Shown: in pieces, positions 5,285 to 52,796 of the stretch
Position numbering within the stretch: position 1 is the stretch's first letter
Layout: every line of letters begins with the position of its first letter
Assembly (NCBI GenBank): GCA_964058845.1
Contig: CAXKVR010000078.1
Span: forward strand, 62,001 to 126,000
Reading direction: 5' to 3'
Source: Carex sylvatica
Taxonomy: Eukaryota > Streptophyta > Magnoliopsida > Poales > Cyperaceae
DNA: 64,000 nucleotides
The notes under the pieces: model-generated
Seen by the model: only the letters and a program-made list of their open reading frames with translations
Database searches by the model: none
Told to the model about the DNA's origin: nothing
Position numbers and translations under genes: made by a program

Positions 5285-5293
5285 AAAAATAAT
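5285..5293. repeat. Left 9-bp target-site duplication of the MULE
   Basis: AAAAATAAT directly precedes the left TIR and is repeated exactly at 14569-14577 after the right TIR. Nine base pairs is the diagnostic duplication size of the Mutator superfamily. The sequence is A-rich, so chance alone is a weaker safeguard than usual. Confidence 0.85.
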
Positions 5294-5520
5294 CGGCCAT
5301 TTTTATTAATACCCAAAAAACAAAACTAAATTTTAAAAATAACCTTAACCAATTTTTTTTTTTAAAAATAACCCAACCGCCCGGGTCTGGGGCGGCCCAA
5401 AAAACAACCCACCCGCCTGGGCCTCGGGCGGGCCACAGAGGGACCAGACCGCCCCCACTGCGGGCGGTCCAATGGTGAGCAAACCGCCCCAGGGTCGGGC
5501 GGTCCACTATGCAGCATTTA
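5294..5520 (+). repeat. Left terminal inverted repeat of the MULE (227 bp)
   Basis: It starts CGGCCATTTTTATTAATACC and is the inverted copy of 14342-14568, with about six mismatches and no length change by hand alignment (roughly 97% identity). The inner half is GC-rich, with repeated GGGCGG/CCGCCC words that could bind transposase. An open frame across it exists only because both TIRs lack stops; it is not a gene. Confidence 0.9.
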
Positions 5521-5635
5521 AAAGCCTCTCCTGGCTCCATTATTTGTAAACGAAGTCAGAGAGAAATTTTACTGTTTGAGAGCGATTTTACTGTTTGAGA
5601 GAGGCGATTTTTAAGCGATTTTACTGTAGCAGAAG

Positions 5636-6131
5636 GTATGTTTTATTTTTATTTTTATTATAGCAATTACTGTTCTATTATATGTAACTTAACTGTCGCA
5701 ATTACTGTAGCAATTACTGTTCTATGTAATTACTGTAGCAATTACCGTAGCAATTACTGTTCTATGTAAGTACTGTAGCAATTACTGTTCTATGTAATTA
5801 CTGTAGCAATATTTTTTTTATTTTTTCTAATTAGATTACTGTACCCGTTATAATACCATATTTCTCAATGAAAACCAACTAATTTTTTTCCATTTCTTAA
5901 TTGTTTTTAATTTCATTTAGTCAGAAATAATTTGATTAATTAATTATTAATTTTCAACAATCTAAAGTTCTATACATTGATTGAGTTCTATATTTATGTT
6001 CTTCTTTTTCAATTTATTCAATTTTTTTTTAAAATGAAACTCAAAAATTGATTGAAGCGAATCTCAGATATCTATATCTATTATTGATGTACAATTACTG
6101 TAATACTTATAAAGTTATTTTTTAAATGTAG
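5636..6131 (+). other. 5'-UTR intron of the MURA gene with tandem repeats
   Basis: A GTATGT donor at 5636 follows AGAAG, and a TAG acceptor at 6130-6131 precedes the ATG by 15 bases. The start of the intron (about 5640-5830) is a degenerate tandem array of the words ATTACTGTAGCAATTACTGT and TCTATGTA. The intron is inferred from splice consensus only. Confidence 0.6.
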
Positions 6132-6146
6132 TTTGTTAAGAAAAAG

Positions 6147-9100
6147 ATGTTAGTTGCATTGTATGTGGGCGGCAAGTTACAAAAGAGTGAAGATGGCGTG
6201 CAGTACACGAAAGATGCTGCATTTGGCTTCGAGGTTAATGAAAATACCACATTTCAGGCACTTAAAGAGCTAATATACGAAAAGACTGCTGTAAACCCCA
6301 ACAGGTATGAAATAGAATTGGCTACACGGATTGACAACTCACGTGGGGTGGGGGGTAGACCTTACTTTGTGAGGTTTCCAATAACAGATGCGAATTTGTG
6401 GAGAGTTGTGTACACTCAATTTGCGACCAGTGGGGTCCAGGTAATTGACATATATTCGAAGAGGGTTCCCCGGGCCAGGGCTGGACCTTCAAGTACTACT
6501 AGGGCTGGACCTTCAGGTTATGAAAATTCAGGTTATGACAATCAGGGGTACCAGCAGCACTCCCCATATGACAGCCAGTGGTACCAGCAGCACTCCCCAT
6601 ATGACAGCCAGGGGTACCAGCATCACTCCCCATATGACAACCAGGGGTACCAGCATCACTCCCCTTATGACAACCAGGGGTACCACCAGCACTCCCCTTA
6701 TGACAACCAGGGGTACCACCAGCACTCCCCTTATGACAACCAGGTTTACCACCAGCACTCCCCTTGTGACAACCAGGGGTACCACAACTCCCCTGAAAAT
6801 ACTGAAGAGTTACCACCACCACCCAGACAGACACCTATAATCCCTAGATTTCCAACTATGCCAGAGTCAGGACCGGTACCCGTTAATCGAACTGATATTG
6901 ATATTGATGTTGATGCTATTGATGCCATACCAGAAAGGGAAATGGAAACGGGGGATGAATACCAAGGGGTTTGGGAATCTGATGACTTATCAGATGGTGA
7001 TGCAAATGTACTAGGTTTATCCAGGGCAGAAAAATTCCCGATTAGAGGTCGGGGAAATAAGCATCCGGTCACCACATTCAACGATACTACAGCTTTCGAA
7101 GAGGCAGACATTAGTTTCTTTGGTCCTCGTGTTAAATACAATCAGGAACTTGCTGCAGGGCAACTTTATACAAACATAGATGAACTTGTAAAGAAAATCA
7201 ATGAGACCCATGTACACAGCAACTGGGAATATAAAATAAATAAAAGAGAGCGAACACGGTTAGTTGTGCTATGTAAAACTCACCCGCGGTGCGAGTTCCG
7301 CCTTTATGCAACCCCTGCGGGTTCAGGGGAAGCATGGATGATTAGGAAGTGTGAACCACCTCACACATGTAAGTCTGCATCCACAAGGACAGACCATGCA
7401 CAGCTGACGGCATCACTAATTGCCGATGCAATTGAGGAGGACATTAAGTTGGATCCATCGATGAGCATCAAGGCGGTGGCTAGAACCGTCAGACACAAAT
7501 ACAAATATGTAATCCCAAAATACAACAGGCTGTGGAGAGGTCGTGAACTTGCGGTTTGCAGAATATTCGGTAGTTGGAAGGATTCATACGGCTATCTGGC
7601 ACCATTGCTCCAGGCCATGGCAAGTACAAACATCGGGACCGTATATGAACTATGGCATGGCCCTTTTTTTGATAAGGATGGAGTACTAATAGAGGGAGCT
7701 CAACAATTCAAGGGCATAGCATGGGCTTTTGGGGCTTGTATCCAAGCTGTGCCATACATCAGACCCGTTATCAGCATTGATGCATGCTTCATGTCCGGCC
7801 GTTATGAGGGGAGGCTACTGATAGCATGTGCATATGATGCTGAGAATCAGTTGTTACCTTTGGCCTTTGCAATTGTTCAGAAAGAGGATGGTGAGAACTG
7901 GGGATTCTTTATGCAGTTTTTAAGAAGACGGGTGATTGGGGAAGAAAAATTTTTCTGTGTGATATCAGACCAACACAAAGGAATAAAATATGTTTTTGAT
8001 CGTGAAGATTACGGTTGGTCAACGCGTACTGGGCAGTGTGTGCACAGGTTGTGTATGCAACACGTTGCGGAGAACCTTTCCAAGGCAACCGGAAATGACA
8101 AGTGGGTTCTAGAAACATTTAGACAAAATTGCAGAAAGAAAAAACCGAGAAGGGTGGTAGAGATGACTAGAAATTTTGCAAAGGTATATATATTTCAATT
8201 GTTTACATATATTATTTTATTTTCCGAAGACTGTTTTTTTAGTACAATTATTTACTTATATTATTTTATTTTCTTATTTTTTTAGTACATGCCAAAGGCA
8301 AATCTCTACTTAATGAAGGTGGGCAAAAATAATCCCCGAGATGTAAACGAAGATCCAGCATACGAGAAAATATATCAATCCCGTGATGGAGGTTGGCGTT
8401 GGGGAATTATGACCACCAACGGGTCGGAGTCGCTGAATGCAGTATTCAAGCAGAGTCGGATGTTGCCCGTGGCTGCAGTTGTAGAGGATACATTCTACAA
8501 GTTAAATGCCTGGTTTCAGGAACGGCGTGCTAAGGCCGCAGAATTAATAAGGATTAATCAGTCATTTTCAACAAGGGTGGAGGAAAAACTAAGACAACAC
8601 AGGGAGAAAGGTGCAACTATGACCGTAATCCCGATGGGTAATGATGGTACTGAATTCGAAGTGCAAAATCCAAATGAATATGCTCCTACCAGTCGCAAAC
8701 CAGATGGCACTATGGAGTTTGTGAAGAGGGCTTGCAAGTACGTGGTTAAATTTGGAGATGCCAGGGCGGTAACCTGTACATGCCAAGGACCCCAACTAAG
8801 TCACATACCCTGTAGTCACGTGATGGCTGTATGCCGAGTGAGGAACTACTGTGAGGATCACTATGTTGCTGACATGTATCGTACCGATTACCTTGCTTCC
8901 ACTTGGGGTGGATCTTTCCATTCTTATCCCGATCAGCATGAGTGGCCTGCATATGTCGGTGATAGAATACTTCCTTCAGAAGGATGGATAAGAAAGGGGA
9001 GGAGGAGACACAAGCGTGTTGTAATGACCATGGACGAGATGGGTGGTAGGCGACCGTCGGGAAATCGGGCTCCCCGTTCTGTTTCTGACAGGCGCACGGC

Positions 9101-9367
9101 AGGTATGTAGCATTGTACGAAATTCATTTATGATCTTATTATATTACTAACTGAATTGTGTTCCTATGTTCAGATGCCATAAACGAGCACAACGAAAGAG
9201 AAAATGCTAGAGTTATTGCTGAAGCAACTGGTAGAACAGAACATCCCCCTCCTCCGAGCCAATCATCTAGTTGCCAAGCCTCTACAAGTAATGCCGCACC
9301 TGCAGTTGGTACCAGTAGAACTAGTCGCATCATTGGTTTTTTGAGACGTGGTGGAAGGGGCAGATAA
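6147..9367 (+). CDS. mudrA-like: MURA-type Mutator transposase, intact, three exons (1,015 aa)
   Basis: Exons are 6147-8183, 8286-9102 and 9174-9367; the phases join cleanly to 1,015 aa. It is the transposase expected to bind the TIRs and cut and rejoin the element. The N-terminal ~110 residues form a compact domain, followed by an eight-unit Tyr/Gln/His-rich repeat (residues ~130-215), an acidic stretch, and a Cys/His region near 375-420 typical of the MuDR DNA-binding N-terminus. The MULE catalytic core shows D545 in ISIDACF, D608 in VISDQHKGI, the C-x2-H of CMQH, and the later Glu in TTNGSESLN. A SWIM zinc finger follows (CTC...CSH, from ~843), and the tail is basic and Pro/Ser-rich. It faces the PMD gene tail-to-tail. 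No defect is visible. Confidence 0.92.
6534..6794 (+). repeat. 33-bp coding tandem repeat in MURA (8 units)
   Basis: Eight near-identical units encode variants of YDNQGYHQHSP; the last unit is one residue short. Changes between units are mostly single substitutions (N/S, G/W/V, Q/H). All units stay in frame, which indicates either selection or very recent expansion. Confidence 0.9.
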
Positions 9368-9713
9368 ACCTGCTATTGTGTGAACTTACTTGTGTTGTGT
9401 GAACTTATTTGTTTGGTTTGAACTAAATTATGAACTTTAATTGTGTTGTTGAACTTTAATTGTAATGTTGGGCTTTTAATATGATATGTAATATTTTGAT
9501 TTGTTATGATTACGTAGTAACTAATGAGTAGAAATGACAAAATGCTACATACAAAAAGATATGCACGCAGATAAAAACGACGAAATGTAAAGTAAACAAA
9601 AGATAAAAGTCAACATGAAATATAAAATAAAACAAACCAAGACATATAACACAACAGCTGCAAACTCAAAATACTACAGTCAGACCTACATCACAATAAA
9701 AAAAACTCTGTAA
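9368..9713. other. Convergent intergenic spacer between MURA and PMD
   Basis: The spacer is about 346 bp and AT-rich, with repeated TTGTGTTGTGTGAACTT words just after the MURA stop. In a convergent element this is where both transcripts should end. No hairpin terminator is expected in a plant gene and no clear poly(A) signal was chosen. Confidence 0.5.
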
Positions 9714-12700
9714 TCATCCTCGTCGTTTCCTGCCGGAGGGAGACAACCTACGAGCCGCTATGCCTTTGCCATCCCTGTGCGGCTGCACGCGCCTCTGCGG
9801 ACTCGCATCTCCTAAATCCTCCTCCTCCATATCCTCGTCCTCCTCTCCCGTATACATGTGATGCGTACCTGTACCGGCTGTCCATGGATCAAATAGACCA
9901 GCTGACTCTGCGGGTGCCGGGCCTGTACGTAGCTCCCATGGATCTTCCTCCCAGCTTGCAGCATACGTGGCAGGAGGCGCTGTACCAAATAATGCAGAGA
10001 CAAAGCCATCTGCAGTCTGAGATGCACTCCCTCCAGCCTCGTAGTCGTGCTCCATCTCCACTCCATATCGTGGCCTGTGGGAGCCAATGTCCTCAGCATC
10101 TGTATCGAACGGGGGCAGCTCATCCACGCTAAAACTAGGCTCGGCATTCCAACGAGGTGCTCCATCCTAAATTGAAATAATGTCAGTTTTGCTACATACA
10201 AATAACTCTGCAATAAATAATATAAAACAGTAACTGACCGGGCCAAGCTCTACCGGAACTCTGTATTTATTTCTGTAAGCGTCCCATCCTTGTGTATTCA
10301 ACACCCAGTGGTGGAACGCCCAACCCGAGTCATCCTCTACATAATTGAAAGTTAAATGAGTTACAACAAATAATTCGGTGAAAATAGAACCATTGTGTGT
10401 GTCCTACTTTTAATATTAACTTGCAGTTACCTGCAGGAGGTGGTGGCATATCCTGAGCGTATATGGCCTCTGGTTGATAATCTGGATTACGCGGTGTCTT
10501 CTGTATATCCCGCCAATTGATGTTCTCCCCAGAATCGCGCAGCATGCCAACGAGGCGGCCTTCAAAACCGCCTGTCTCCACGATTGGTGCAGTGTGCTCA
10601 AGCATTTGGCATCCTATATATCGCCAAGCATCCCTCGCCATGCACACCAGGCTGTGTCCAACTCCTCTCATAGCTGTCAACATCTGCACACAACATGATT
10701 ATGACAACAGTAAGTAATTAAAATTTGCAATTTGTAATTACAGTATGTTTAAGTTGTATTTACCGCGCGAGCATTGATCGGACCCCAAGGCATGTAATTG
10801 CCAGATGAATCCATCAGTCTACGTCGAAGGTTGTCGCCATAATGGCCCGTAAGATAGACTGACGGCATGCCCCATCTCTGGTACCAGACGGCATATCTCA
10901 AATCCCCGGGACCAGCACCCACTGACGCTCCCGATGGCGGACTCCATAACTGCTGATCCGGATGTCGAGCCAAGCCGTACTCCAAGCTGAAATGCTGTCT
11001 CCAGTCGACTTTGGGCTTGGTGTGCGCCGTACTATAGGTACAATTAATTAGAAATGAGAGAAACGGTGACATTATTAAAGTGATAATAAAATTAAGTACA
11101 TAGTACTTACTTGTGAAACTTGTCGGTATCATCCTTACCCATCAGCGGGTTATCCGGAATGAAAGCATCCAAGCCAAATTGTCGAGACACCCGATCGGGA
11201 TAGTGATACTCCACTATCCAGAAACAAACGACTGGTCCCCGATAATACCATAGTCGTGTCTGCTCCAGTGTCAGCGGGCTCAGCCATCTACGCTGATACC
11301 ATGTACGATACGGAAACCAATCGACATTCGCATCTCGGAGCATCTGGAGCTGACTCCGAACATAAGAAACCCCCCTGCCTGTTTCTTCATAACTCTGATG
11401 ACTGCCCCATATGGCACCGTACGCGGGGCATCTGTCTGGGGTAGGAACTCCCCATCGAGGATGTGGCAATGGTATAACTGGCCGATTTACAGGAAGATGT
11501 GACCACGACCAATGCTGTAGCAGAAGAAGCGGTCCAAAAATCTGTTTATTCCTCACCTGAAAATTTAACTTAAAATAAAATCTTGGTGCGTCTTATTCAA
11601 TTTTCAATTACAACGTATATTAATACAGACTTACCAGACAGGCATGACACAGGCCTCTGTATAAGTGGGCGAGGACAGCTCCACCCCAGTTCCATCTCGA
11701 TTCTTTCTCCATGTTTCTCAGCAGGGAGAGGTACATAATCGGGACCGCATCACCGCTGGAATCCTCGAACATGACAGCACCACACAAATCCAGCACATAC
11801 GCCCTAGTATACCTGCAATATAAAATAATCAATATAAATAATTGAGATTGTTGATTAACTACTAAGTTACTTTAACGAGTGTAATGGTACCTCCTGACCG
11901 CCTCAATGTCAGCAGTCTCAGGAAATATCTGATTCTGAAAGAAGTGAGACCGGAGTGCCTTTAGAGAAATACAGTACCCAGAATACCGGAACTCCTCCTC
12001 CTCCTCCCCCTTCTTCTTCTTCTTCTTCTTCAATTTCTTCTGCAGATTATTTGGATCACACCCTAACAACTCCGGTATCATCCTCTGCAGGTTTGGATGG
12101 TCTGAGATGCCACCTATGGGCTCGCCATCAATGGGTAAACCCCATAATGCGCTCACATCACCAAGGGTGACTGTCATCTCCCCGACCGGGAGATGAAATG
12201 TATGGGTCTCAGGTCGCCATCTCTCCGCTAGACCATGCATCAGAGACTGATCGATCTTACTCTGCGGCATAGTGGCAAGCTGATACAACCCAAGGTTCAA
12301 GAGGCATCGCTGCATTTCTTCATGGGGAACGAACGGAATCTCAGACCTGCGGTGCCTCACCGTAAGCATGACATCATCCTGTATTTATTATCAATTTATG
12401 AGACTCAAATCGTGCCATTTTTTTAGTATTATTTATTTACATTATGTATAAAAATCACGTACCTCAAGAGATGCCAATGAGACGCGGTGCTTAACATGAT
12501 GGGTCCATAGAAGAGGACTAAATGTGTCAGGATCATGCGCACCATCTGTAAAACTAGCCTGAGAACCCGCTCCAATCGGATCCTCATATGACGACGGACC
12601 CTCTCCAATCGGATCCACCGAGGACGTGCCCGCTACACTCGGATCCACGGCATCTGGACCCACTGCAGCCGGATCCGCTGCAGGCGCAGCTCGTACTCCC

Positions 12701-12720
12701 CACCGTCTAGATCTGGGCAT
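9714..12720 (-). CDS. Plant mobile domain (PMD, MAIN-like) protein carried by the MULE, 813 aa
   Basis: There are eight exons on the minus strand: 12463-12720, 11891-12378, 11635-11812, 11111-11556, 10764-11031, 10431-10683, 10239-10336 and 9714-10166. All introns are GT-AG and all phases agree, giving 813 aa. Family signatures are LGDVSALWGLPIDGEPI, RRYTRAYVLDLCG, WNWGGAVLAHLYRGLC, the Trp-rich LLLQHWSWSHLP, and FPYRTWYQRR. PMD proteins include host MAIN/MAIL1, nuclear factors tied to genome stability and transposon silencing, and many transposon-borne copies. The N-terminus is Pro/Gly/Asp-rich; exon 2 holds a short Lys7/Glu5 tract made by AAG/GAG repeats; the C-terminus is acidic then basic. 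It lies where mudrB lies in MuDR. Its role in transposition is unknown. Confidence 0.9.
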
Positions 12721-12721
12721 A

Positions 12722-14084
12722 CTACATTTACAAAAAAAATCCATATTAATCAACCACAAATTTTAAAAATTAAAATTTATTCGAAATTTGAAACAATTTA
12801 TAAATATTTTCAACCAAATTCAAACCCTAATTGAACTGCAAATTCAATCAATTAAAACCCTAAAATAGTATGAAATTCAAACCCTGAAATTCAATAAACT
12901 TTTATATATTATGAAATTCACTTTTTAAAATAAAAATTATTGTGAAAATCGACAAACAAATAAAATTTGGAAAAAACATAAGTATGCATATTTTTTTTTT
13001 AAATATTGATAATTTACTTGCAAAAAAGAATGTAATTTTTAAAAAAAACTTCATATACTTTAAAATAATTTGTTTTACTTGAAATTAATTTATATTGATA
13101 TATACATGTGTTTCGTCAACTTCAAAATACCTTCAACATCATCAAAACTATAATATATTATAACAATAAAATTATAATATATTATAACAATAAAATTGTA
13201 ATATATTATAACATATTATATATGGAAACAAAATTATGTAATTTTTTTTTTAATATTACAATAATTTATTATTTTATTCTCAATCCCCTCTAAATATTCA
13301 ATTTTATCTATTGATGTAATCAAATAGTTAACTCTTTAATGTAGTCAAATACATAAATTATCTACCTACGATCTTTTCTCAAAAAAATAAAAAATGCATA
13401 ACTTATATACTAAATGACATATTTTATATAATCACACAATATATATTTCCATTTGATAAAATTTGACGTTTCACTAAATTTTGCATGGAAGAATTACTGT
13501 TTTCTCAAAGAAAAAAATTCATAATTTAATAGCATTTATAATTTCAAAATTTAATCCCGCAATTCCCGCAATTTAATAACATTTACATAATTTAATAGCA
13601 TTTATAATTTCAAAAAAAAAATACATAATTACCGCAATGATAATTTCAAAATTTAATACCGCAATTTCTGCAATTTAATAGCATTTATTAATAACTCCCA
13701 ATTTCCATAATTCGTGACATTATACCAATTCTAACAATTCATAATCGAATCGAATTTAACAATTACACAACTTAATTACATTTGCATAAGTTACACAATC
13801 GAATAGAATTCAACAATTACACAATTTCATCACAATCGAGTCGAACCGAATCGATTTGAATCGAATTGAACCGAATCAACCGAATCAATTCGATTTCAAT
13901 AATTACACAATTTAATCACAATCGAATCGAACCGAATTGATTTTAACTGAATCGAACCTAATCGATTTTAACCTAATCGAACCTAATCAATTTTAACCGA
14001 ATCGAACCGAATCGATTTTAACCTAATCAACTCGACTTCAACAATTACACAACTTAATCGCATTCAATCGAATCGAAAACTTAC
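12722..14084 (-). other. 5'-UTR intron of the PMD gene
   Basis: A CTCTCGG|GTAAGTTTT donor at 14084-14085 and a TGTAG acceptor at 12722-12723, one base upstream of the ATG, define a 1.36-kb intron in the leader. It is AT-rich, with a long degenerate array of AATCGAATCGAACC-like words at about 13735-14080. The splice sites are inferred from consensus only. Confidence 0.55.
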
Positions 14085-14341
14085 CCGAGAGAAATGGAGC
14101 AATTCCAACGAGGTAGACCGCGGAGAGTTGCGGATTCGTGGGCGGGGAGGTACGAGCGAGAGAGAGAGTGAGCGAGCGAGGGAGAGGAGAGGAGTGGCGC
14201 AGCAGCGGCGGAGACAAGGGCGGAGCACCGACGGCGGGGGTGGGGGCGGACTTGGCTGGGGCTGGGGTTTTTTTTTTCTTTTTCCTGGTTCTGGTGCGGA
14301 GGGGAGGCAGAGAAGGGAATGGGGAGAGGGCTGCTGGGGTG
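14085..14341 (-). promoter_or_regulatory. GC-rich leader/promoter region of the PMD gene
   Basis: This GC-rich segment between the right TIR and the leader donor contains GAGAGAG/GAGCGAG (CT-rich on the sense strand) typical of plant 5' leaders. Open frames on both strands reflect base composition rather than coding. The transcription start is probably here or in the TIR. Confidence 0.45.
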
Positions 14342-14568
14342 TAAATGCTGCATAGTGGACCGCCCGCCCCTGGGGCGGTTTGCTCACCAATGGACCGCCC
14401 GCAGTGGGGGCGGTCTGGTCCCTCTGTGGCCCGCCCGAGGCCCAGGCGGGTTGGTTGTTTTTTGGGCCGCCCCGGGCCCGGGCGGTTGGGTTGTTTTTAA
14501 AAAAAAAAATTGGTTAAGGTTATTTTTAAAATTTAGTTTTGTTTTTTGGGTATTAATAAAAATGGCCG
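14342..14568 (-). repeat. Right terminal inverted repeat of the MULE (227 bp)
   Basis: This is the inverted copy of 5294-5520, ending AAAAATGGCCG at 14568, with the 9-bp target copy directly after it at 14569-14577. See the left TIR for the alignment. Confidence 0.9.
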
Positions 14569-15099
14569 AAAAATAATTAAGGACCTGAGTTTTAATTTGA
14601 ATTTATTGAATTTGAAAAGGTTTTTTAGATTTCGAAATGAGACCTATTTATATCTATAAAACAAGATTGACAACCTGCAGGTTGAGTAATTTTTAGAAAA
14701 TTTTAAGAAAGAAAGATAAAGAAAAAAAAAAGATTTCCAAAAGCTGGTAATTTAAATCTCTTCTATAAAATTCTTCGTGAAATTCCTTGTAGAATCCTCC
14801 ACTGCTCAAACACCTCTCTTGTTAAAACATCAATCACCTTAACCTCATTTCTAATTAAATATCATTGAACGACACTTATATATTGTGGACATATTACTTC
14901 ATTACATTGAATTTTCTTAAAAAAAGAATTCACAATACATTACTGAAAAGATGATGAAAAAAGAAAAAAACAAAACTAGAGTATGATTTTGGGCTTTGTA
15001 AAGTTTTCCTTAATTAATGAAGCCTAGCTAGCATGTCGGGGCCGAATCACTCTTTCCGTCGATGCATGTATGTGAAGGCAATTCGAAGTTGATTGAGTC

Positions 15100-18979: not shown

Positions 18980-20138
18980 TTAGATGTCCTTCAAAATTGA
19001 TGGACAAATCTTCAGCAAATTGTGAAATTCATCAGTTTGTGCAACAGCTTTAAAAACTTCAGGAATACTCATAAATTTGAGGCACTCTGCTTTAATTTGT
19101 GTTGACTGCAATTGTGTTGCTCGGCCAAAATTAATGTAGTTGCTGCGCTGCTCACACCGAGGTTCTTGCATAGTAAATCTTCACATACCAACCTCAACCT
19201 CTCCAATTGGTACCTATCTTTCATGTATTTATTGGTCACGTTAAAATTGACGAAAAGAAGAATAGAAGAGAAAAATTAAAAAAAAAATCTTATACATACC
19301 TATCCGCTGCTACTAGCAAATGCTGAGCCATCAACATCAAATCTTTCATTTCACCATTAGTCCCCTCAAAATCAGGTAATGAATCAGAATATATGAAGTA
19401 AAGCATAGATTTAAAAACTGGTGCTTCAATATCTTCAACTGTTATGCTGTCTGTCCATTTTTCTTTCATATAACCGTAAAACTCAGCATTGAAGACAGCC
19501 GACCTTTCTGCAAGCATGCATCGATGAGCTTTAATTCTCTCTCCATTCACTACAAATGTAATTTCCACCCGCTTTCCGCTTTTTAGTAGGTTAGCCCAAT
19601 TTTGGTTCAAATTTGACGGTGGAATAATGACGCCATAGGGGTTTGTTACTTCAAGCTTAGTTCGTTTAATTATAACAGTAACAACACACTTCACTGTCAA
19701 AGCATCATCTTTGAGATATTTTGATGCCTCCAATTTAGTTCTCTTCACAAATTGAGGACAACCTCTGATCTTATTACCTTTTGGAGGCCAAGTACAAGCT
19801 ATGGGGCATGCAATGCTAAACTTAGAGCGGCCACCATTCGGTTTAAGTATGGTGAAACTTACTTGCGCCTTCACAGTAGTAGCTTCACTTTCAAGTCGAA
19901 GGAAAATGGATATAAAATTTTTGTCATCCTTGCTGAATCCATCAGGACAGATTTTAATTATCCAGTTATATCCACTGACAGTAAAAATATCAGAGTCGAT
20001 GCATTTTCCTATGCCAATCCCTTTAATCAGGGAATATACGTAAATCTTAAACAGATGTGATCCAGTTATGGTTTCTGTTCGAATTGCTGAGGCTGTCTGG
20101 AGGTTTTGATGATTAATGACTTGATCGGATGAACCCAT
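18980..20138 (-). pseudogene. MATH-BTB (BPM-like) gene copy 1, C-terminus frameshifted
   Basis: Exon 1 is 19300-20138 and exon 2 starts at 19213, with a GT-AG intron between. The MATH domain (roughly residues 22-165) includes SGYNWIIKICPDG and YLKDDALTVKC; the BTB domain (about 185-280) includes VTFVVNGERIKAHRCMLAERS and SMLYFIYSDSLPDFEG. Such proteins link substrates to CUL3 ubiquitin ligases. In exon 2 a 5-base insertion relative to copy 2 (ACAAA, near 19,100) changes the frame, so translation would stop at 19072 instead of 18980, and the last ~30 residues (LKAECLKF onward) are lost. MATH and BTB stay intact, so a shortened ~326-aa protein is possible. Confidence 0.8.
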
Positions 20139-29418: not shown

Positions 29419-30574
29419 ATGGGTTCATCCGATCAAGCTATTAGTCATCAAAACCTTCAGACAACCTCAGCAATTCGAACATAAACCATAACTGGATCAC
29501 ATCTGTTTAAGATTTATGGATATTCACTGATGAAAGGAATTGGCATAGGAACAACCTTCTATTCTGATATTTTTACTGTCGGTGGATATAACTGGATAAT
29601 TGAAATATATCCCGATGGATACACCAAGGATGGTCAAGATTTTATATCCATTTTCCTTCAACTTGGAAGTGAAGGCACCAATGTGAAGGCGCAAATAAGT
29701 TTCACCATACTTGAACCGAATGGTGACCGCTCTAAGTTTAGCATTGCATCCAAAGTAACTTCCACTTGGTCTTCAAAAGGTGAGAGAAGGGGTTATTGTC
29801 AGTTTGCAAAGAGAACTGAATTTGAGGTATCAGAATATCTTAAAGATGATGCTTTCACAGTGAAGTGTGTTGTTACTGTGATTAAAGGATATAAGCTTGA
29901 AGCAACCAACTCCTATGGCGTCATTGTTCCACCGTCGAATTTGAACCAAAGTTGGATTAACCTACTGGAGAGCGGAAAGGGGGCGGATGTTACATTTGTA
30001 GTGAATGGAGAGAGAATTAAAGCTCATCGATGTGTGCTTGCAGAAAGATCGGCTGTCTTCAATGCCGAGCTTTTCGGTTGTATGAAAGAGAAATGGACAG
30101 ACACCATAACAGTTGAAGATATTGAAGCACCAGTTTTTAAATCTATGCTTTATTTCATATATTCTGATTCACTACCTGATTTTGAGGGGAATAGTGATGA
30201 TGAATGTGAAAAGAAAGATATGATATTGATGGCTCAGCATTTGCTAGTAGCAGCAGATAGGTATGTATAAGATTTTTTTTTATCTTTCCCTTTTATTTTT
30301 ATTTTTTTACCAATTTTAATGTGACCAATAAATACATGAAAGATAGGTACCAGTTGGAGAGGTTGAGGTTGATATGTGAAGATTTACGTGCAAGAATCTC
30401 TGTGTGAACAATGCAGCGACTATAATAATCTTGGCCGAGCAACACAATCGCAGTCAACTTAAAGCAGAGTGTCTCAAATTTATGAGTATTCCTGAAGTTT
30501 TTAAAGCTGTGGCACAAACTGATGAATTTCAGAATTTGCTAAGAATTCATCCATCAATTTTAAAGGACATCTAA
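29419..30574 (+). pseudogene. MATH-BTB (BPM-like) gene copy 2, nonsense and frameshift
   Basis: It is the inverted duplicate of copy 1. Exon 1 is 29419-30260 and exon 2 starts at 30347, with the same GT-AG intron position. Codon 22 is TAA (29482-29484) where copy 1 has GAA, so the original start gives a 21-residue peptide. The frame reopens at Met 29530 and covers most of the MATH fold (GGYNWIIEIYPDG) and a full BTB domain (VTFVVNGERIKAHRCVLAERS). Early in exon 2 one base is missing relative to copy 1 (near 30,390), giving a stop at 30405-30407. The downstream homologous sequence to 30574 is kept. The two copies therefore carry different lesions. Confidence 0.85.
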
Positions 30575-43527: not shown

Positions 43528-44836
43528 GTAAATTAATTAATATCAATGAAAATCATATATATGTATCACAGTTGTCTAAAATACTTGCAGGAGGCTATAT
43601 ATATATATATATATATATATAGTAGAAAGTCATCAGTAGTTATGTTTATGATTAAGAGGGATTTTATCCTCTATTAAAAAAATATTTTAAAAAAAATATT
43701 GCTCATATCAAATGGGGATCGATTTCATTTTTAATAGTGAAAAATATCCTCTATTAAAGCCATCACTTTCTGCTTTCTGCTTTCAATAGTAAAAAATATT
43801 CTTGAGAAAAGGTCATGGAGTAAGCTATCATGCCTTAAAAGGTAAATCCCAATTGACATATTGAACTTTTCATTTTTATTAGTTCAAAAACTAAATCAAT
43901 GATTTAAAATAATTGTTTGGTTCCCACTTGTTAAGGCAGCCCTATAAGGTATGTAAAGGAACTCATTACAATTCATGAGAAAATAGTCAAAATACTGTGA
44001 ATAAAAAACAAAGATTGGATCAAATTCCTACGAAAATAAAATTTATATATCGACGGTCAATGTGTACACAGGATTCAGGAACTTTCAAATTTCCTCTTTT
44101 ACATAACAAAAATATTTTGTCCTAAAGTTTTTAAATTGAGCTTTTAATTAACTAAAATTTTCTATTGTATACAGTAATATTTTTCCCAACTATTTTAGAT
44201 TCTCCAAACCAAATCACAAAGTAAACATGCAATATTTAAGTTGCTAAGTACAGTTAATATATATTGACTCAGATTCATTGAGGCAACGATGTATACCAAG
44301 CACGCTTAATTAATTGCGAAGTTCCGATGGGATTCAGTGCTTTAATTAGTATTGGTATGATCGCATCCAGCACTATGATTCTTTGATTGGCTGTATGAAC
44401 ATTAAATAAATAAAAATTAAAAATTAACACCCGTAATTGTATTTATGAAGATATGCATGAATTATTACGGAACAAAAATTAATTAATTTGCATGTTTTTT
44501 TCAAGATTCTCCGGATAACTTGACTTTTTCTTCTTCTGGTGTTGTCAATTCAAAAAAGCCTTTATGGTCTGGTCAGCCAAACTTGTGCTGTACGCTTGAT
44601 TGTGATTTGTGAGAGTTATTAAAGAAAGTGTGGAAACTTGTAGTGTGCATTAATTTCTACACGTAAACATTAAACTCTAGACACGGTTTTCTAATTACCA
44701 ATTCGAGGAAAGTCCAATCTACTACTTTCCTCTGATCTTTCATCCGATGCACAGTGGATCAATTATTGAATCAATTAAATATGACTATGCATATGTTTTA
44801 TAAAGAGTTGTTCATAGAAACTACTAGTAACACATT
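43528..44836. other. Intergenic region upstream of WAK-like gene 1
   Basis: It contains a (TA)n run at about 43,597-43,622. The last ~350 bp (for example CTTGATTGTGATTTGTGAGA and GTAGTGTGCATTAATTTCTA) is shared with the region upstream of WAK-like gene 2 (about 49,880-50,110), so the tandem duplication included the promoter. Confidence 0.55.
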
Positions 44837-47561
44837 ATGCAAAGAGCAATGATCTCAATCCAACTTTTTCTTCTCCTCCTGCATTTCAAAAACATTGAAT
44901 CTGCTAACACCATGATCGCTTTGCCCGGGTGCCCAGAGAGCTGTGACGGCAGTGATATTTTTATCCCTTACCCTTTCGGCATAGGCCCAAATTGCTCCCT
45001 GTCTGAAGAATTCGCTGTCGATTGTGAATACACTATTAACGGTACACGTAGTCCTACCCGTGGTTTATTTTTGATTGAGAACATAAGCCTGCCCTTAGGC
45101 CAGGCACGTACATTAGGCAGTGTAGTTTCAACGTGCGACGGCATAAAAACAACAACAAACTTGAGTAATAACGCACCATTTCGGCTCAACACTGAGAAGA
45201 ACAAATTTACAGTCATGGGGTGTAATACACTTGCCTATCTCCACCTTGACCCCAGTAGTGATTACTCAGTAGGGTGTTTTTCTTCCTGTGATAGTCAAGA
45301 TACACTGAATAAGCATGGATCCTGCTCTGGAATTGGTTGTTGCCAGACAGATATCCCCAAAGGAACGTCAATCTTTTATTATACTTTTGATGAGAGGTTC
45401 AACAACTCGAAGGTGCAGGACTTTAGTCCTTGCAGCTATGCTATGGTGGTGGAGGCGTCTGAGTACCAGTTTAGCCCCTACGACATCACCAATGAGCAGC
45501 TGGCTAACCGATTAATGCCGATCGTGCTTGACTGGGCCATAGGAAACACAACGTGTGAAAACGCACAGACCAACAAATCATCCTATGCATGCAGAAGCGA
45601 TAACAGTATTTGTTTAAACTCAAACAGTAGTTCTGGTGGCTATTTCTGCAACTGCTTGGACGGCTATGAAGGCAATCCGTACCTTGATGAAGGCTGCCAA
45701 GGTCTTTCTCTTTTTCTCTCACCCTCTAATGTTCTTGCAGTTGCTCTCTCTTTATTTATTTTTATTTTTTTACAATCTTTGCGGTGGTTGCCACATCAAC
45801 TCATTGTGGCATATATTCATCCAGATATTGACGAATGTGCCGACCAAAATCCATGCTCCAAGCAAGGAAAGTGTCACAATCTTCAAGGAACTTATCGGTG
45901 CAATTGTCCTTTCGGTTTGCGTAAAAATGATGGCGAGCAAGAATGCCATCTCAACATTGCAATAGTTATAGGTTCGTTATTTTCTTTCCAGAAGGTGTAT
46001 TTGGATGAGACAAAGAATAGTGCTAAATCTGTTTAGCAACTATATTATTAATTTCTTTTCAGAATAAATATCTTTCATCAAGTTTTGAAATGTTGTTAGA
46101 AGTATACAAATAGATAGTAATTAAGGATTAATTGCTTTTCAGGATAAATAAATAATACAGTTCATCGAAACTTAGATTTTGCCTACTTAATTAGCTTGCA
46201 TTTGCCAAAATCTGATCAAATTAAAACAGCCCGGTCCACACCAAATAGGGGTGTTAATGTCCCCCTTTTCCCCGTTTATCACGATTTGATAAGATGGGTA
46301 ATGTTAAGATTTTTTTTTTTTTTTTTAGCTTATCAGGTAATAGTAAGGGTACAGGAAAAAACAATTCTTTACCCATTATTCTATACCATAATATAATTAA
46401 AATAAAAATTATTGGGTAATGGTAAGGGTATTTACAACTTTAGAATCAACATTTACAAATTTTTGCACTGAAAATTAAAGCAAGTTTGCACTAAATATTA
46501 CAGGAGCTGGTGTTGTTATTGTCGTGTTATCATTTCTTGGATTTGGTATATATGTGCTCCTAGAAAAAAGAAATATTTCCAAAGTAAAAGAGAACTACTT
46601 TCAACTGCACGGTGGACGGATTCTGTTGGAGAAGATTAAATCTAAACAAGGATTTGGATTTACAATCTTTACAAAGCAACAAATAGAACAAATAACAAAC
46701 AATTTTGACAGTGCAAATATTATTGGCCATGGAGGCCAGGGCACTGTCTATAAAGGAACTCAAAGAGATCAAACAATTGCCATTAAAAAGTGTAAGATAA
46801 TCAATGAGAGCAAGAAGAAAGAATTCGGAAAAGAGATGTTTATTCTCTCACAAATTAACCACAAAAACATTGTAAGGATCCTAGGTTGTTGTCTAGAGGT
46901 GGAGGTTCCTATTTTAGTATACGAGTTCATTCCTAATGGTACTCTATATAGCTGTATCCATTACAAAAAGCAAGGATCACACATTTCTCTCGTGACTCGT
47001 CTAAGGATTGCACATGAATCAGCAGAAGCACTTGCCTACTTGCATACTTCAGCATCTCCTCCGATATACCACGGAGATGTGAAATCTGCAAATATTCTCT
47101 TAGACCAAAATTACATGGCAAAGGTGTCTGATTTTGGAGCCTCCATACTAGCTCCAACAGATGATGCGCAATTGGTCACGCTTGTGCAAGGAACATTGGG
47201 GTACCTTGATCCAGAATACATGCAATCTTGCAAACTGACAGACAAGAGCGATGTGTATAGCTTCGGTGTTGTTCTTCTGGAGCTTCTAACCAGCAAGCCT
47301 GTAATTGATTATGATTTACCAGAAGAAAAGAGGAGTCTTTCATCTTGTTTCCTTTCTGCTATGAAAGAGAACAAAATGCAAGAGCTTCTAGATGATGGAA
47401 TTATACATGAAGATGACATGGAACTAATCAAGGCAGTTGCTGAGCTGGCTAAGAAATGTCTAAGCATGAAAGGGGAAGAGCGACCTATGATGAAGGAAGT
47501 AGCAGAAGAACTTCATCGAATCAGAAAGTTTCAGGTGTTGAAATTAATGTTTTTGATATAA
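44837..47561 (+). CDS. Wall-associated receptor kinase-like 1 (689 aa, three exons)
   Basis: Exons are 44837-45701, 45825-45971 and 46504-47561 (GT-AG, phases agree). Residues 1-22 form a signal peptide. The GUB_WAK pectin-binding domain starts at GCPESCDGSDIFIPYPFGIG; an EGF repeat follows (YACRSDNSICL to EGCQ), and exon 2 is one calcium-binding EGF (DIDECADQNPC). Exon 3 opens with the membrane helix (VVIVVLSFLGFGIYVLL) and a kinase with GHGGQGTVYKG, AIKKCK, DFGAS and GTLGYLDPEY. WAKs sense cell-wall pectin or its fragments at the plasma membrane. The catalytic loop reads YHGDVKSANILL (about residue 527), so it is non-RD, unlike its neighbour. Intron 2 contains a TAGGGGTGTTAATG repeat. Confidence 0.9.
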
Positions 47562-47756
47562 TGTTTATTTTGAGTTAGTATTTGGAATGTGATACGGCAA
47601 AATAGTGGGCTCTTGATTAGTATGACTATTAATTGGGCTATGTTTAGGAGTGTTTAGGTGAGCTATATAACTAATATTGATGTTGTAAACGACCCATGTA
47701 ATTAAGGCCTAGTGCGAGAATTGAGTTATATATATAATGAAACAATTAACTAATAA

Positions 47757-48060
47757 ATGAGAGAGAATTTTCTAGGGTCTCCTAGCGGCCACCTTTTATT
47801 TTACCCTAAAAATGCGACCCTAAAGATAATTTGCAAATCACTATTTTTGAATAATCTGAAATTTTTAAATCAAGTGATTTTTCATCTATTTAAAAAGATA
47901 GTAAAAAAAAATATAAAATATGATCTATACAAGTACATTTTCATAAAGTAATCAGGTTTAAAAATTCAAATTAATTATTTGAACATTAAAAATTGTTTCA
48001 TAGTACAAATTAATTCGAGCTATATATACATATATAGTACCATAATCTAACTCAACTATA
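47757..48060. repeat. Degenerate GAGTGAGGC-family MITE remnant
   Basis: It retains the arm words AAATCAAGTGATTTTTCATC, AAAAATATAAAATATGATCT and GTACATTTTCATAAAGTAAT in family order. The tips are lost. Confidence 0.45.
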
Positions 48061-48434
48061 CACAAATTAATCCTCCTTTTACACACTATTATTTTTTTAT
48101 CACATCCGTGTATGATATGATGTCTATGGTTAACGTTTTTATAGTAGTGTAAAAGAAACGTTTTTTTTCATTCCAAATTGAATTGAACAAAACAGAAAAA
48201 AGAAAAAGAAAAAAAGAATACACATAGCTAGGTCATGCGTACTTGGTGTTGCGCATGATCATATATAATGCACAGCATCAAGCTGTGTTTGTGTTAAGTT
48301 TTGAATTTTTTAGAAATCAATGGTACCAAAAGAATTTTGAAATATTGAGATGGTGACTTAAAAAAAATCGGTTTATAAAATTTATGCGCATTTGACAATT
48401 GATAAAATAAACGAGTCAATTATTTAGTACAGCA

Positions 48435-49030
48435 TAGTGGTTTGCAAATATCCCACGGGGGCGGACCCGATCCGTACCCGCCCGTGCCCGGTACCCGGGT
48501 TACCCGTGCCCGAGCCCGGGTATGGGTCGGGTAAACGGGTAAACGGGTACGGTTAAAAAACGGGTAGGGTACGGTTATTTGGTTCAAAACCCGAGCAAAC
48601 CCGGTACGATTTACGCCCGACCCGACTCGACCCGACCCGTACCCGACCCCGTACCCGTTAAAAAATTCAAAAAAATTCAAAAAAATTCAGAATAATTCAG
48701 AAAAATTCAAAAAAATTCAAAAAAATTCAAAAAAAATTCAAAAAAATTCAGAAAAAATTCAAAAAAATTCAAAAAAATTCAAAAAAATTCGAAAAAATTC
48801 AAATTTTTTTGAAATTTCGAATTTGCCGCCTAAAAAAAAATGGGTACCCGACCCGGACCGCCCTACCCGTGCCGGGTACCACGGGCACGGGTATAAGTCG
48901 GGTAGGGTACGGGTTTTGAAAAATATACCCGAGTATACCCGACCCGAGATACCCGTATACCCAACTTACCCGTACCCGACCCAAACCCGTACCCGACCCC
49001 GGGTCCGCCCGGTCCGAGAGCAATCCACTA
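48435..49030. mobile_element. Non-autonomous hAT element with exact 8-bp target duplication
   Basis: Inverted tips TAGTGGTTTGC (left) and GCAATCCACTA (right, one mismatch) are flanked by GTACAGCA at 48427-48434 and 49031-49038. Eight base pairs is the hAT signature. The subterminal parts are dense GGGTACCCG/CGGGTACGGG repeats in inverted orientation, and the middle (48,660-48,810) is a tandem array of AAAAAATTC. Long reading frames across it are artefacts of the repeats. It lacks transposase. Confidence 0.92.
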
Positions 49031-49198
49031 GTACAGCACAACTTCATATTGCTAGTCTGTCCGATACGTGTCAATCCGACACGGAAATATAGTGACCAGT
49101 TAAGAGTACGTACCATGGAAGTATGAAATATGCAGCTATCAGTTTCATGGCAAGGCAAATCTTCATAATCTTATTATAATAATGTTTTTTGTGGAAAT

Positions 49199-49500
49199 AT
49201 TACTATCATGTGGGGTCAACCCACGCGGTCCCATCAAAGACTAACACTAGACTTGAAGGCTTCGGGTCCTAGCGAAGACTAACACTTAGGAGACCTCAAT
49301 TATTCCAATATGTATTTATCTTAATTCTGTCAATAATTTAACGAATCACTAACACTTAGAAGACTAACACTTAGGAGACTTTTGGACGTGAGGGTCCCAG
49401 CAAAGATAAGACTTGGAGACTTGGGGACGTGGGGGTCCCAGCGAAGACTAAGACTTGGAGACTTGGGGTTGGGGGTCAACCCGGCCACGCGAGCGGTATT
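49199..49500 (+). repeat. Degenerate tandem repeat (AGACTTGGGGACGTGGGGGT type)
   Basis: Units with GGTCCCAGCGAAGACTAA and GACTTGGAGACTTGGGG occur at 49,393-49,430 and 49,433-49,470, with older related pieces (GGTCCTAGCGAAGACTAACA and AACACTTAGGAGAC) at 49,265-49,380. GGGTCAACCC bounds the array on both sides (49,213 and 49,472). Confidence 0.55.
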
Positions 49501-50167
49501 ATGTGGTAATATAAAAAGGATTTATTCTAAATTACTTTCAAAAGTACATGCAGTTAATATTGACTCAGATTCATTGCGGCATGTCATTCACTAAGGCTAC
49601 ACAAAGCAAGCTAAAAATTTGTAATTAACAATATGCAAGAGACAACGATATGTATACAGCTAATAAATCATATTATCGCTCATAAATATTTAACGAACCA
49701 CAAATAATATTTCATAAGGATGCAAGTTATCTTTGATCTTTGATTGGCTGTATGAACATGAAATAAAAATAAAAAAAAACGTAATTGTATTTATGAAGAT
49801 ATATATGTAAGCTACTATTACGGAACAAAAAAAACTTAACTTTTCAAGATTATCCGTATAACTTGGCTTCTTCTTCTTTTTTTCCTGATGTTGTCAATTC
49901 AGCGTTAATTTATGGTTGACCAAACTGTGCTGGGTGCTTGATTGTGAGAGTTGAGAAGGAAAGGTTGTGGAAACTTGTAGTGTGCATTAATTTCTACGCG
50001 TATGGTCGGCCAAACTTGTGGAAACTTATATTGACTCAGTCGCTGTTGCTATCACCAGTTCTGACCCCTGAATTATTGAATCAATTATATATGAATGTGC
50101 TTATGTTTTATAAAGAGCCATAGAAACTACAAAAATAAGGGAATTACTCATACCACTTATCAGTATC
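49501..50167. promoter_or_regulatory. Upstream region of WAK-like gene 2
   Basis: It shares blocks with the region upstream of WAK-like gene 1, including ATTGACTCAGATTCATTG and TTATAAAGAG about 60 bp before the start codon. No individual binding site can be supported. Confidence 0.4.
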
Positions 50168-52796
50168 ATGCAGAGAGCATTGATATTAATCCAACTTTCT
50201 CTTCTCCTCCTCCTGCAATTCAAAAGCACTGAATCTGAAAACACCATCATTGCTAAGCCCGGGTGCCCAGAGACCTGTGAGGGAAGCGATATTCTTATCC
50301 CTTATCCTTTTGGCATAGGCCAAAATTGCTCCCTGTCTGAAGAATTCGTTGTCAATTGCGAAAACACTACTAACGGTAAACGTAGTCCTTACCGTGGTTT
50401 ATTTATGATTGAGAATATAGACACCATTGGCGAGGCACAAACAAGACTTGCTATAGCTTCCTCGTGCGGTAGCACACCAACACCAACAAAATTTAGTAAT
50501 ATCGCACCATTCCGGCTCAACACCAAGGATAACAAATTTGTAGTTGTTGGGTGTAATACACTTGCCTATCTCCACCTTGACAACAGTAGTGATTATTTAG
50601 CAGGGTGCTTTTCTTCCTGTGGTAGCCTAGATACACTGAATAATTATGGATATTCCTATGAATATTTCTATCAATATATCTATCGATATAACTATAGATT
50701 TCCCCACTATGAAATCTGCCATGGAATTGGTTGCTGCCAGACAGATATCCCCAAAGGAACATCTACCTTTTATGCTACTTTTGATGAGAGATTGATCAAT
50801 AACTCCAAGGTGCATGAATCTAGTCGTTGCAGCTATGCTATGGTGGTGGATGTATCGTTCAATTATCAAAACGTCTACTCCACCATTCGCAAGCTGGCTA
50901 ACAGTAGGGTGCCGGCTAACCAAACAATGCCGATCAAGCTTGACTGGGCCATAGGAAACACAACATGTGAAGACGCACAGACCAACAAATCATCATATGC
51001 ATGCAGAAGCGATCACAGTGTTTGTTTAAACTCAACCAGTAGTTCTGGTGGCTATTTCTGCAACTGTGAGGACGGTTATGAAGGAAATCCTTACTTTGAT
51101 AAAGGCTGCCAAGGTCTTTTTTCTCTCTCTCTCTGATCACTCTCTCCAGTTTTTGCAGTTGCTCTCTTTTTATTTATTTTATTTTACAATCTTTGCGGTA
51201 GTTGCCACATCACCTCATTGTGGCATATTCATGCAGATATTGACGAATGTGCCTACCAAAATCCATGCTCCAAGCCAGGAAAGTGTCACAATCTTCAAGG
51301 AACTTATCAGTGCAGTTGTCCTTCTGGATGGAGTCATAACGATGACGAGTTTGCATGCCATCTCAACATTGCAATAGTTATAGGTTCGTTAATTTCTTTT
51401 CAGGATAAACATCATTAATTTATCAAGTTTCGAATGTCGTTACAAGTATACAAATAGGGAGTAAATCTAATGAATTAATTTAGTTTGCTAAAACTAAATT
51501 TTCTTGCAAATTTCTTGCTTTATTCTCTAACATTTATATGCTTTATTAATGTACACAGGTACAGCGATCCCGCTGGGTTTTGTTGCTACCTGTAGCATGA
51601 TATACTTATGTATTGCTATAGCCAAGCGTATAAACTTGTTATTAAAAATAAAACAGGAAATGTTAAAAAAGAAGTTCTTCGATCAAAATCAGGGGTCGCT
51701 TCTCCAACAACTAATAGTTTCCAATGAAGCGGCCACACAAAATACAAGAATTCTTACAATACAAGAGCTGAAAAAAGCAACAAACGGTTTTGATAATGCA
51801 CTCATTCTTGGTCGGGGAGGTCATGGATATGTCTATAAAGGTATTTTGTCTGATCAACGTGTCGTGGCTGTAAAAAGGTCCAAAATTGATGATCAGGCCA
51901 ATGATCAGAGGTCTGTTGCTCAGCGGGCCGCTGATCGGCAGGCTGAAATCTATCAGTTCATAAATGAAGTGGTTATTCTTTCACAAGTGAGCCATAGGAA
52001 TGTTGTGAAACTCTACGGATGTTGCCTAGAGACCGAAGTCCCATTGCTCGTTTATGAGTTCATCTCGAATGGAACACTTTTTAATCATCTACATGTAGAG
52101 GAACATTGTTCCTTGACATGGAAACATCGGCTAAGAATCGCCCTTGAGGCTGCAGGAGCAATTTCCTATCTTCACTCATCTGCAGCCTCTATATCAGTTT
52201 TGCACAGAGACATAAAATCAGCAAACATTCTATTGGATGATTATTTCACAGCAAAAGTGTCAGATTTTGGGATCTCAAAATCTGTCCAAATAGATCAAAC
52301 TGGTATAGATACAATTATCCAAGGGACACTTGGGTATTTAGACCCGGAGTACCATACCACTGCCCGGTTAACACAGAAAAGTGATGTATTCAGCTTTGGT
52401 GTCATTCTAGTTGAATTGCTAACAAGAAAAAAGCCATTATTCTCTTCTAGGATGTTTGAAGGGGGTAATCTCATTGGATATTTTTGTGATGCTATGGAAG
52501 AGAACAGTCTTTTTGAGATTCTTGATCCCCAAGTTATGAATGAGGAGCACAGAACAGAACTCGAAGCCGTTGCCAAGCTTGCAGAAATGTGTCTGAGATT
52601 GAAAGGAGAGGAAAGACCAACAATGAAGGAAGTGGAGGTACAGCTCGATGTCTTATGGCGGTCCGACCATCAGCAAAAACATCCTCTGACGTCTCAAAGT
52701 TTGGAGGAGATGCAACGTAGGGCGCATTACTCCACTTTAGAAATTGAACATCCACACCCATCATCTAAATTTTTCTCGGCAAAAGAAGGCTTTTAG
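50168..52796 (+). CDS. Wall-associated receptor kinase-like 2 (776 aa, three exons)
   Basis: Exons are 50168-51113, 51237-51383 and 51559-52796; exon 2 has the same 147-nt length as in gene 1. Order: signal peptide, GUB_WAK domain (GCPETCEGSDILIPYPFGIG), WAK Cys-rich region, EGF (ending GCQG), calcium-binding EGF (DIDECAYQNPC), membrane helix (IPLGFVATCSMIYLCIAIA), kinase. The kinase is complete: GRGGHGYVYKG, VAVKRSK, LHRDIKSANILLD, DFGIS, GTLGYLDPEYH. Unlike gene 1 it is an RD kinase and has a normal C-terminal tail. A Tyr-rich insertion (GYSYEYFYQYIYRYNYRF, about 50,648-50,702) interrupts the extracellular domain. Between helix and kinase is a Lys/Gln-rich linker. Confidence 0.93.

Follow-up and report, generated by a model that had tools for sequence, protein, structure and literature searches.

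A Mutator-like element of Carex sylvatica with a convergent plant mobile domain gene under purifying selection and candidate target arrays

The window analyzed here, a stretch of 64,000 nucleotides from Carex sylvatica (contig CAXKVR010000078.1, positions 62,001 to 126,000), contains at positions 5294 to 14568 a Mutator-like element (MULE) that is probably autonomous and that carries, convergent to its transposase gene MURA, a gene for a protein with the plant mobile domain (PMD). On balance, the PMD gene is under purifying selection and is retained for the sake of the element. We propose that MURA, a MULE/SWIM transposase, would act on the terminal inverted repeats (TIRs) and produce 9-bp target-site duplications (TSDs), and that PMD would be its co-inherited, selected partner, with a predicted fold of the type of VANC21, a protein of the Arabidopsis MULE VANDAL21. 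PMD may bind short motifs that are arrayed in the element's noncoding DNA, foremost those of a same-strand TACTGT array within the leader of MURA, and this binding would lift host silencing at the arrays, so that MURA could be expressed. Taken as a whole, this account of an autonomous MULE with a selected, VANC21-like PMD that lifts silencing at the element's own arrays seems to us evenly balanced between right and wrong; within it, we infer the DNA binding by PMD, TACTGT as its target, and the anti-silencing.

Structure, copies, and mobility of the element

The element has the hallmarks of a MULE, namely, a MULE transposase domain, a SWIM zinc finger, TIRs, and a target duplication in the range of 8 to 11 bp. 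Its two 227-bp TIRs differ by six mismatches. The predicted MURA protein has 1,015 amino acids encoded by three exons and the predicted PMD protein has 813 encoded by eight, and in both genes the introns are GT-AG and the frame is open. These exon models are predictions from the sequence, and they are supported by further copies, where models lifted over remain open and exon indels are mostly multiples of three. MURA matches the Pfam families MULE (PF10551, 9.1e-12) and SWIM (1.7e-5), both over the curated cut-offs, and PMD matches PF10536 only (5.8e-67; 226.7 bits versus a cut-off of 34.9). Its domain spans residues 87 to 480. The closest named relatives are a Carex rostrata protein for MURA (85% identical) and a C. 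littledalei protein for PMD (61% identical). TIR alignment and splicing recovered the TIRs, the 9-bp duplication, and the two convergent genes with the protein lengths claimed in the original prediction, and the open frames, GT-AG introns, and linked copies confirm an intact two-gene MULE in which PMD is a genuine second gene. The claim that PMD takes the place of mudrB holds as to position. Within MURA, an in-frame 33-bp repeat at 6533 to 6784, encoding a Q/Y-rich unit of 11 amino acids, differs in number between copies by 33, 66, or 99 bp.

In the genome searched (64 Mb in 950 contigs, with the window on contig C78), related TIRs are present in at least 40 places (the best 40 of 389 candidates). 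Perfect 9-bp TSDs, every one different, flank 10 of the 13 copies read at both ends (the window, C844, C140, C48, C282, C475, C221, C137, C157, and the gene-less C231). In C559 and C149 the two flanks agree at 8 of 9 positions, no TSD was seen when both ends of C943a were read, and for C943b, represented by one end, the second end was not found. The TSD in the window, AAAAATAAT, is A/T-rich; the perfect TSDs of the other copies are less simple. Open frames for the two genes, together with every splice site, are kept in 6 of the 11 window-group copies examined over both genes (the window, C844, C140, C559, C282, and C221), while C475 has an altered last MURA acceptor and C48, C943a, C943b, and C149 are broken. 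Across the core, C844 and the window share 99.4% identity. The search for further linked MURA-PMD copies with different TSDs, proposed as a check on the original prediction, therefore came out in its favor. Recent movement of the family is well supported, and the element in the window has probably moved recently too; any current activity is conjecture. The gene-less copy (C231:129974-132181; L034, L032) is 2.2 kb long, with TIRs of 88% identity and a perfect 9-bp duplication, and by eye its inner part is inverted-repeat-like.

Association of PMD with MURA and selection on both genes

We compared the positions of MURA and PMD using the best 111 of 452 candidates from a MURA protein search of the genome. 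A convergent PMD lies within 12 kb downstream of 83 of the 111 MURA matches listed. Two have a same-strand PMD, at 8.6 and 10.2 kb, which probably belong to neighboring elements, and 26 have no PMD among the matches listed. (The first count used 117 of 143 PMD rows, the 26 others being further exon rows of the same genes; 41 of 42 rows of a second PMD list and 40 of 43 rows of a third were also used.) The convergent layout is found as well in C473, C190, and C138, whose MURA is just 47 to 50% identical to that of the window. Because the layout recurs at about 50% MURA identity and PMD is under purifying selection, we conclude that PMD is a lasting partner of MURA and not a passenger. In a further multi-copy PMD lineage (L067 on C138, with L001 to L005, L007, and L008), PMD is a long single open frame, and C138, the sole copy of this lineage examined, has a convergent MURA.

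In the MURA tree, a single clade (100/100) unites six lineages with seven database proteins, of which four come from Carex rostrata and three are unnamed. A branch of 1.35 separates this clade from the transposase parts of nine predicted fusions of MULE and PMD (from Vitis, Dendrobium, Actinidia, rice, and Apium). The quartet that joins the window to C473 and C190 to C138 is recovered in both trees, with support of 99/100 for MURA and 92/83 for PMD, as expected under co-inheritance. With four lineages this is a weak test, and PMDs lacking a known context (from Carex, Triticum, and others) fall between them. For C93, C600, C473, C190, C138, and L001/L006, joined tblastn pieces were used in the trees, and these may contain intron residues. 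The window PMD belongs to a Poales clade, and eudicot MAIL2 falls in a different one (midpoint rooting, without PMD-A or PMD-B references). The host rows of this tree are MAIL2-type eudicot proteins, Arabidopsis MAIN and MAIL1 not being among them, and the MAIL2 labels were assigned partly by similarity. P0106 is a Hevea "hypothetical protein," with which the Hevea PMD-phosphatase protein P0214 clusters. The 64-Mb genome yielded no clear host MAIN/MAIL orthologue, best candidates only.

Compared with the sister copies C93 and C880, the window PMD has omega values of 0.340 and 0.295, respectively (dS about 0.19 to 0.21), and its PMD domain has values of 0.288 and 0.266; the overall Fisher values for PMD are 1.9e-13 and 1.2e-16. 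For MURA codons 305 to 1015, the corresponding omega values are 0.202 and 0.205. The N-terminal tail of PMD appears unconstrained (omega 0.98). Against C600, omega is 0.44 for PMD (0.27 for the domain and 0.87 for the C-terminal tail) and 0.215 for MURA. In this same comparison with C600 (L063), dS is 0.34 for PMD and 0.21 for MURA, as if the two halves differed in history through exchange between copies.

Motif arrays, predicted fold, and alternative explanations

The TACTGT array follows the left TIR and precedes the start of MURA. It probably falls within a 5'-UTR intron, whose donor-like site, immediately 5' of the array, is also present in C93, C600, and C473. The array is densest in its tandem part, at about 5664 to 5810, and its 13 forward and 0 reverse motifs compare with a mean of 0.46 and a maximum of 3 in Markov sequences (n = 500). 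Forward/reverse counts elsewhere are 38/0 in C221, 27/1 in C93, 9/0 in C473, and 6/0 in C600 (Markov maximum of 4; by eye, one of the six is in the flank outside the TIR). About half of the units of the C600 array read TACCGT. When TACTGT and TACCGT are taken together, the most frequent spacing is 11 bp in both C93 and C600, 11 and 19 bp in C473, and 12 and 16 bp in the window; 11 bp is about one helical turn. Three spaced TACTGT motifs occur 801 times genome-wide, versus 37 for a reversed-pattern control, and among about 100 triplet places listed, seven groups (C4, C8, C15, C31, C34, C38, and C45) are found on the strand of a listed MURA, about 1 kb upstream from it. On the PMD side, the window, C600/C236, C473, and C190 have lineage-specific arrays of other motifs, and no such array was found in the C138 piece. 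AATTACTGT occurs 3 to 34 times per copy, on both strands and with lone sites counted. No TACTGT array was found in the gene-less C231 copy; since this one copy is mobile without it, the array seems unneeded for mobility in trans. A repeat of about 22-bp units like TACTGTAAAATTACAAGATGAA (e.g., G000:C8:119687-119759) is found genome-wide and is seemingly unrelated to the MULE array.

Structure models were made for two relatives of the window PMD, Carex rostrata P0002 and P0167 (XP_010656952.1, named "phosphatase 7 long form homolog," which shares 68% identity with Linum "MAIN-LIKE 2"). From these models, the PMD domain family is predicted to share the VANC21 fold, and the MAIN-LIKE-2-type model has the same predicted fold match as the transposon-type PMD.

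Several observations weigh against our account. The modeled proteins are relatives of the window PMD and not that protein itself; P0002 is 41% identical over 68% of the window PMD query, and by Foldseek alone it matches VANC21 with an E value of 1.9e-3, a TM-score of 0.49 by target length, and an rmsd of 12.2. Foldseek alone gave no VANC21 match for P0167 at E values up to 10, and VANC21 was absent from the results of a profile search of Protein Data Bank sequences. Proteins that share a fold need not share a function, and host MAIN and MAIL1 promote silencing. As for selection, broken C217 gives a PMD omega of 0.43 against the window (MURA, 0.30), broken C48 gives 3.5, and near-identical pairs are noisy, with PMD values of 0.26 to 0.63 for most pairings of the window with members of its group. 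As for the arrays, C190 has no TACTGT in 240 bp and C138 none in 1,740 bp, and both have PMD; about 25 other triplet groups among the 100 or so places listed have no adjoining listed MURA, and some of these resemble the 22-bp repeat. Tandem repeats are inherently same-strand and can expand passively. Finally, the arrays follow MURA lineages and PMD lineages equally well, and therefore MURA could be the binder.

That the arrays serve as binding sites for MURA, or are passive minisatellites of the intron, and are unrelated to PMD, is a serious possibility, although we lean against it, and it is compatible with several of the other readings. The arrays adjoin MURA and track its lineages, their unit number is unstable, and similar triplets occur away from listed MURA, but the gene-less C231 is mobile without arrays and the TACTGT core persists though units diverge between lineages.

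The original prediction offered two roles for PMD, and of these counter-silencing gains support, from the VANC21-like predicted fold and the target-like arrays, and integration gains none. We consider it unlikely that PMD assists transposition as an accessory factor in the manner of mudrB, working in integration or in a transposase complex and not in silencing. PMD occupies the same convergent place as mudrB in MuDR and is selected, as MURA is. In addition, mudrB has been described as apparently required for integration (PMC6446971). The predicted fold nevertheless points to the anti-silencing DNA binder VANC21, and no result here connects PMD with integration. Similarly doubtful is that PMD mimics host MAIN/MAIL1 and weakens silencing in trans by competing for PP7L or for host DNA sites. 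Ikeda 2017 (PMC5418596) suggested that a captured PMD could counteract silencing, an idea taken up again by a 2021 review (PMC8616336), and the predicted common fold of a MAIN-LIKE-2-type protein and a transposon-type PMD speaks for the mimicry put forward originally; the trees, which place the window PMD in the Poales clade outside the MAIL2 clade, speak against it, and a general mimic needs no element-borne arrays. Host gene capture by MULEs is documented (PMC13317346), but that PMD is a passenger captured in Pack-MULE style and without a role is highly improbable given the purifying selection and a convergent layout that is seen in 83 of the 111 listed MURA matches and in lineages about 50% identical.

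Table 1. Coordinates of the element's features in the window
Feature	Position	Strand	Comment
Left TSD copy AAAAATAAT	5285..5293	none	9 bp, perfect match to right copy
Left TIR	5294..5520	+	227 bp
Same-strand TACTGT motifs	5570..6101	+	13 forward, 0 reverse within 5521-6146
Putative MURA 5'-UTR intron (AAG|GTATG ... TGTAG|TTTG)	5636..6131	+	predicted from sequence
MURA exon 1, with polymorphic 33-bp repeat	6147..8183	+	predicted splice model
MURA exon 2, SWIM zinc finger	8286..9102	+	predicted splice model
MURA exon 3 and stop	9174..9367	+	predicted splice model
PMD exon 8 and stop, C-terminal basic GRKRRG	9714..10166	-	predicted splice model
PMD exon 7	10239..10336	-	predicted splice model
PMD exon 6	10431..10683	-	predicted splice model
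PMD exon 5	10764..11031	-	predicted splice model
PMD exon 4	11111..11556	-	predicted splice model
PMD exon 3	11635..11812	-	predicted splice model
PMD exon 2	11891..12378	-	predicted splice model
PMD exon 1, start codon at 12720	12463..12720	-	predicted splice model
Tandem arrays upstream of PMD, units such as GATTCGGTT in PMD direction	13727..14028	-	
Right TIR	14342..14568	-	227 bp
Right TSD copy AAAAATAAT	14569..14577	none	9 bp

Elsewhere in the window, open frames at 19290 to 20138 and 29485 to 30270 resemble MATH-BTB proteins by eye, and two adjacent genes at 44831 to 52796 resemble, also by eye, wall-associated receptor kinases.

Comparison with known systems

MuDR of maize has convergent mudrA and mudrB genes, TIRs near 200 bp, and a 9-bp TSD. 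The element described here is alike in its two convergent genes, TIR size, and TSD, and its second gene is PMD.

Also close are the MULEs of MUDR group 50 and MUDRAVI2 group 49, for which Dupeyron 2019 (PMC6446971, Table 1) lists PMD "in antisense for most"; we take this PMD to be the plant mobile domain, a term ("mobile domain") with 0 occurrences in the main text. These MULEs share the SWIM-finger transposase, TIRs (30 to 320 bp), a TSD of 9 to 10 bp, and the antisense PMD. The copies, selection, motif arrays, and fold are added here and are absent from that Table 1 and the text sections compared. MULE transposase-PMD fusions, reported from grasses and Amborella with speculation on an anti-silencing use (Ikeda 2017, PMC5418596), are likewise MULE-borne but are same-strand fusions, not convergent genes. 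In eight predicted fusion proteins (gene models) that we scanned, MULE/SWIM comes first in seven and PMD comes first in the one from Apium.

PMD has been described as a domain whose function is unknown, present in proteins that Arabidopsis needs to silence transposons (PMC7156037, PMC8616336). The host proteins MAIN, MAIL1, and MAIL2 (PMD-C) share PF10536 with the element's PMD and, in the MAIN-LIKE-2-type model, the predicted fold match; they differ in being products of host genes that promote silencing and in falling into a separate clade (MAIL2-type eudicot rows). A broader proposition, which we advance tentatively and hold slightly short of evenly balanced, is that PMD and the VANC DNA-binding domain belong to one superfamily of sequence-specific DNA-binding domains, with PMD-MULEs lifting silencing through TACTGT arrays and host MAIN/MAIL enforcing it, in an arms race on one fold.

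VANC21 is also the product of the second gene of a MULE. It binds YAGTATTAY motifs that are arrayed with a single orientation within the noncoding DNA of its own element, and the tandem repeats in introns and upstream regions of VANDAL21 have been gained and lost (PMC5735166). The DNA-bound VANC21 structure has the fold predicted for PMD relatives, and same-strand motif arrays in noncoding DNA occur here in the window, C93, C600, and C473 lineages. The two systems differ in motif and in the further gene VANB of VANDAL21, and the profile search revealed no sequence similarity between VANC21 and PMD. The convergent layout and the general anti-silencing idea are already known; the link to the VANC21 fold and the TACTGT arrays are added here, both as predictions. 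A predicted match to a solved protein-DNA complex, together with candidate arrays, would reduce the question of PMD function to a binding assay, and an anti-silencing role, if true, would explain why PMD is kept opposite the transposase in so many MULEs.

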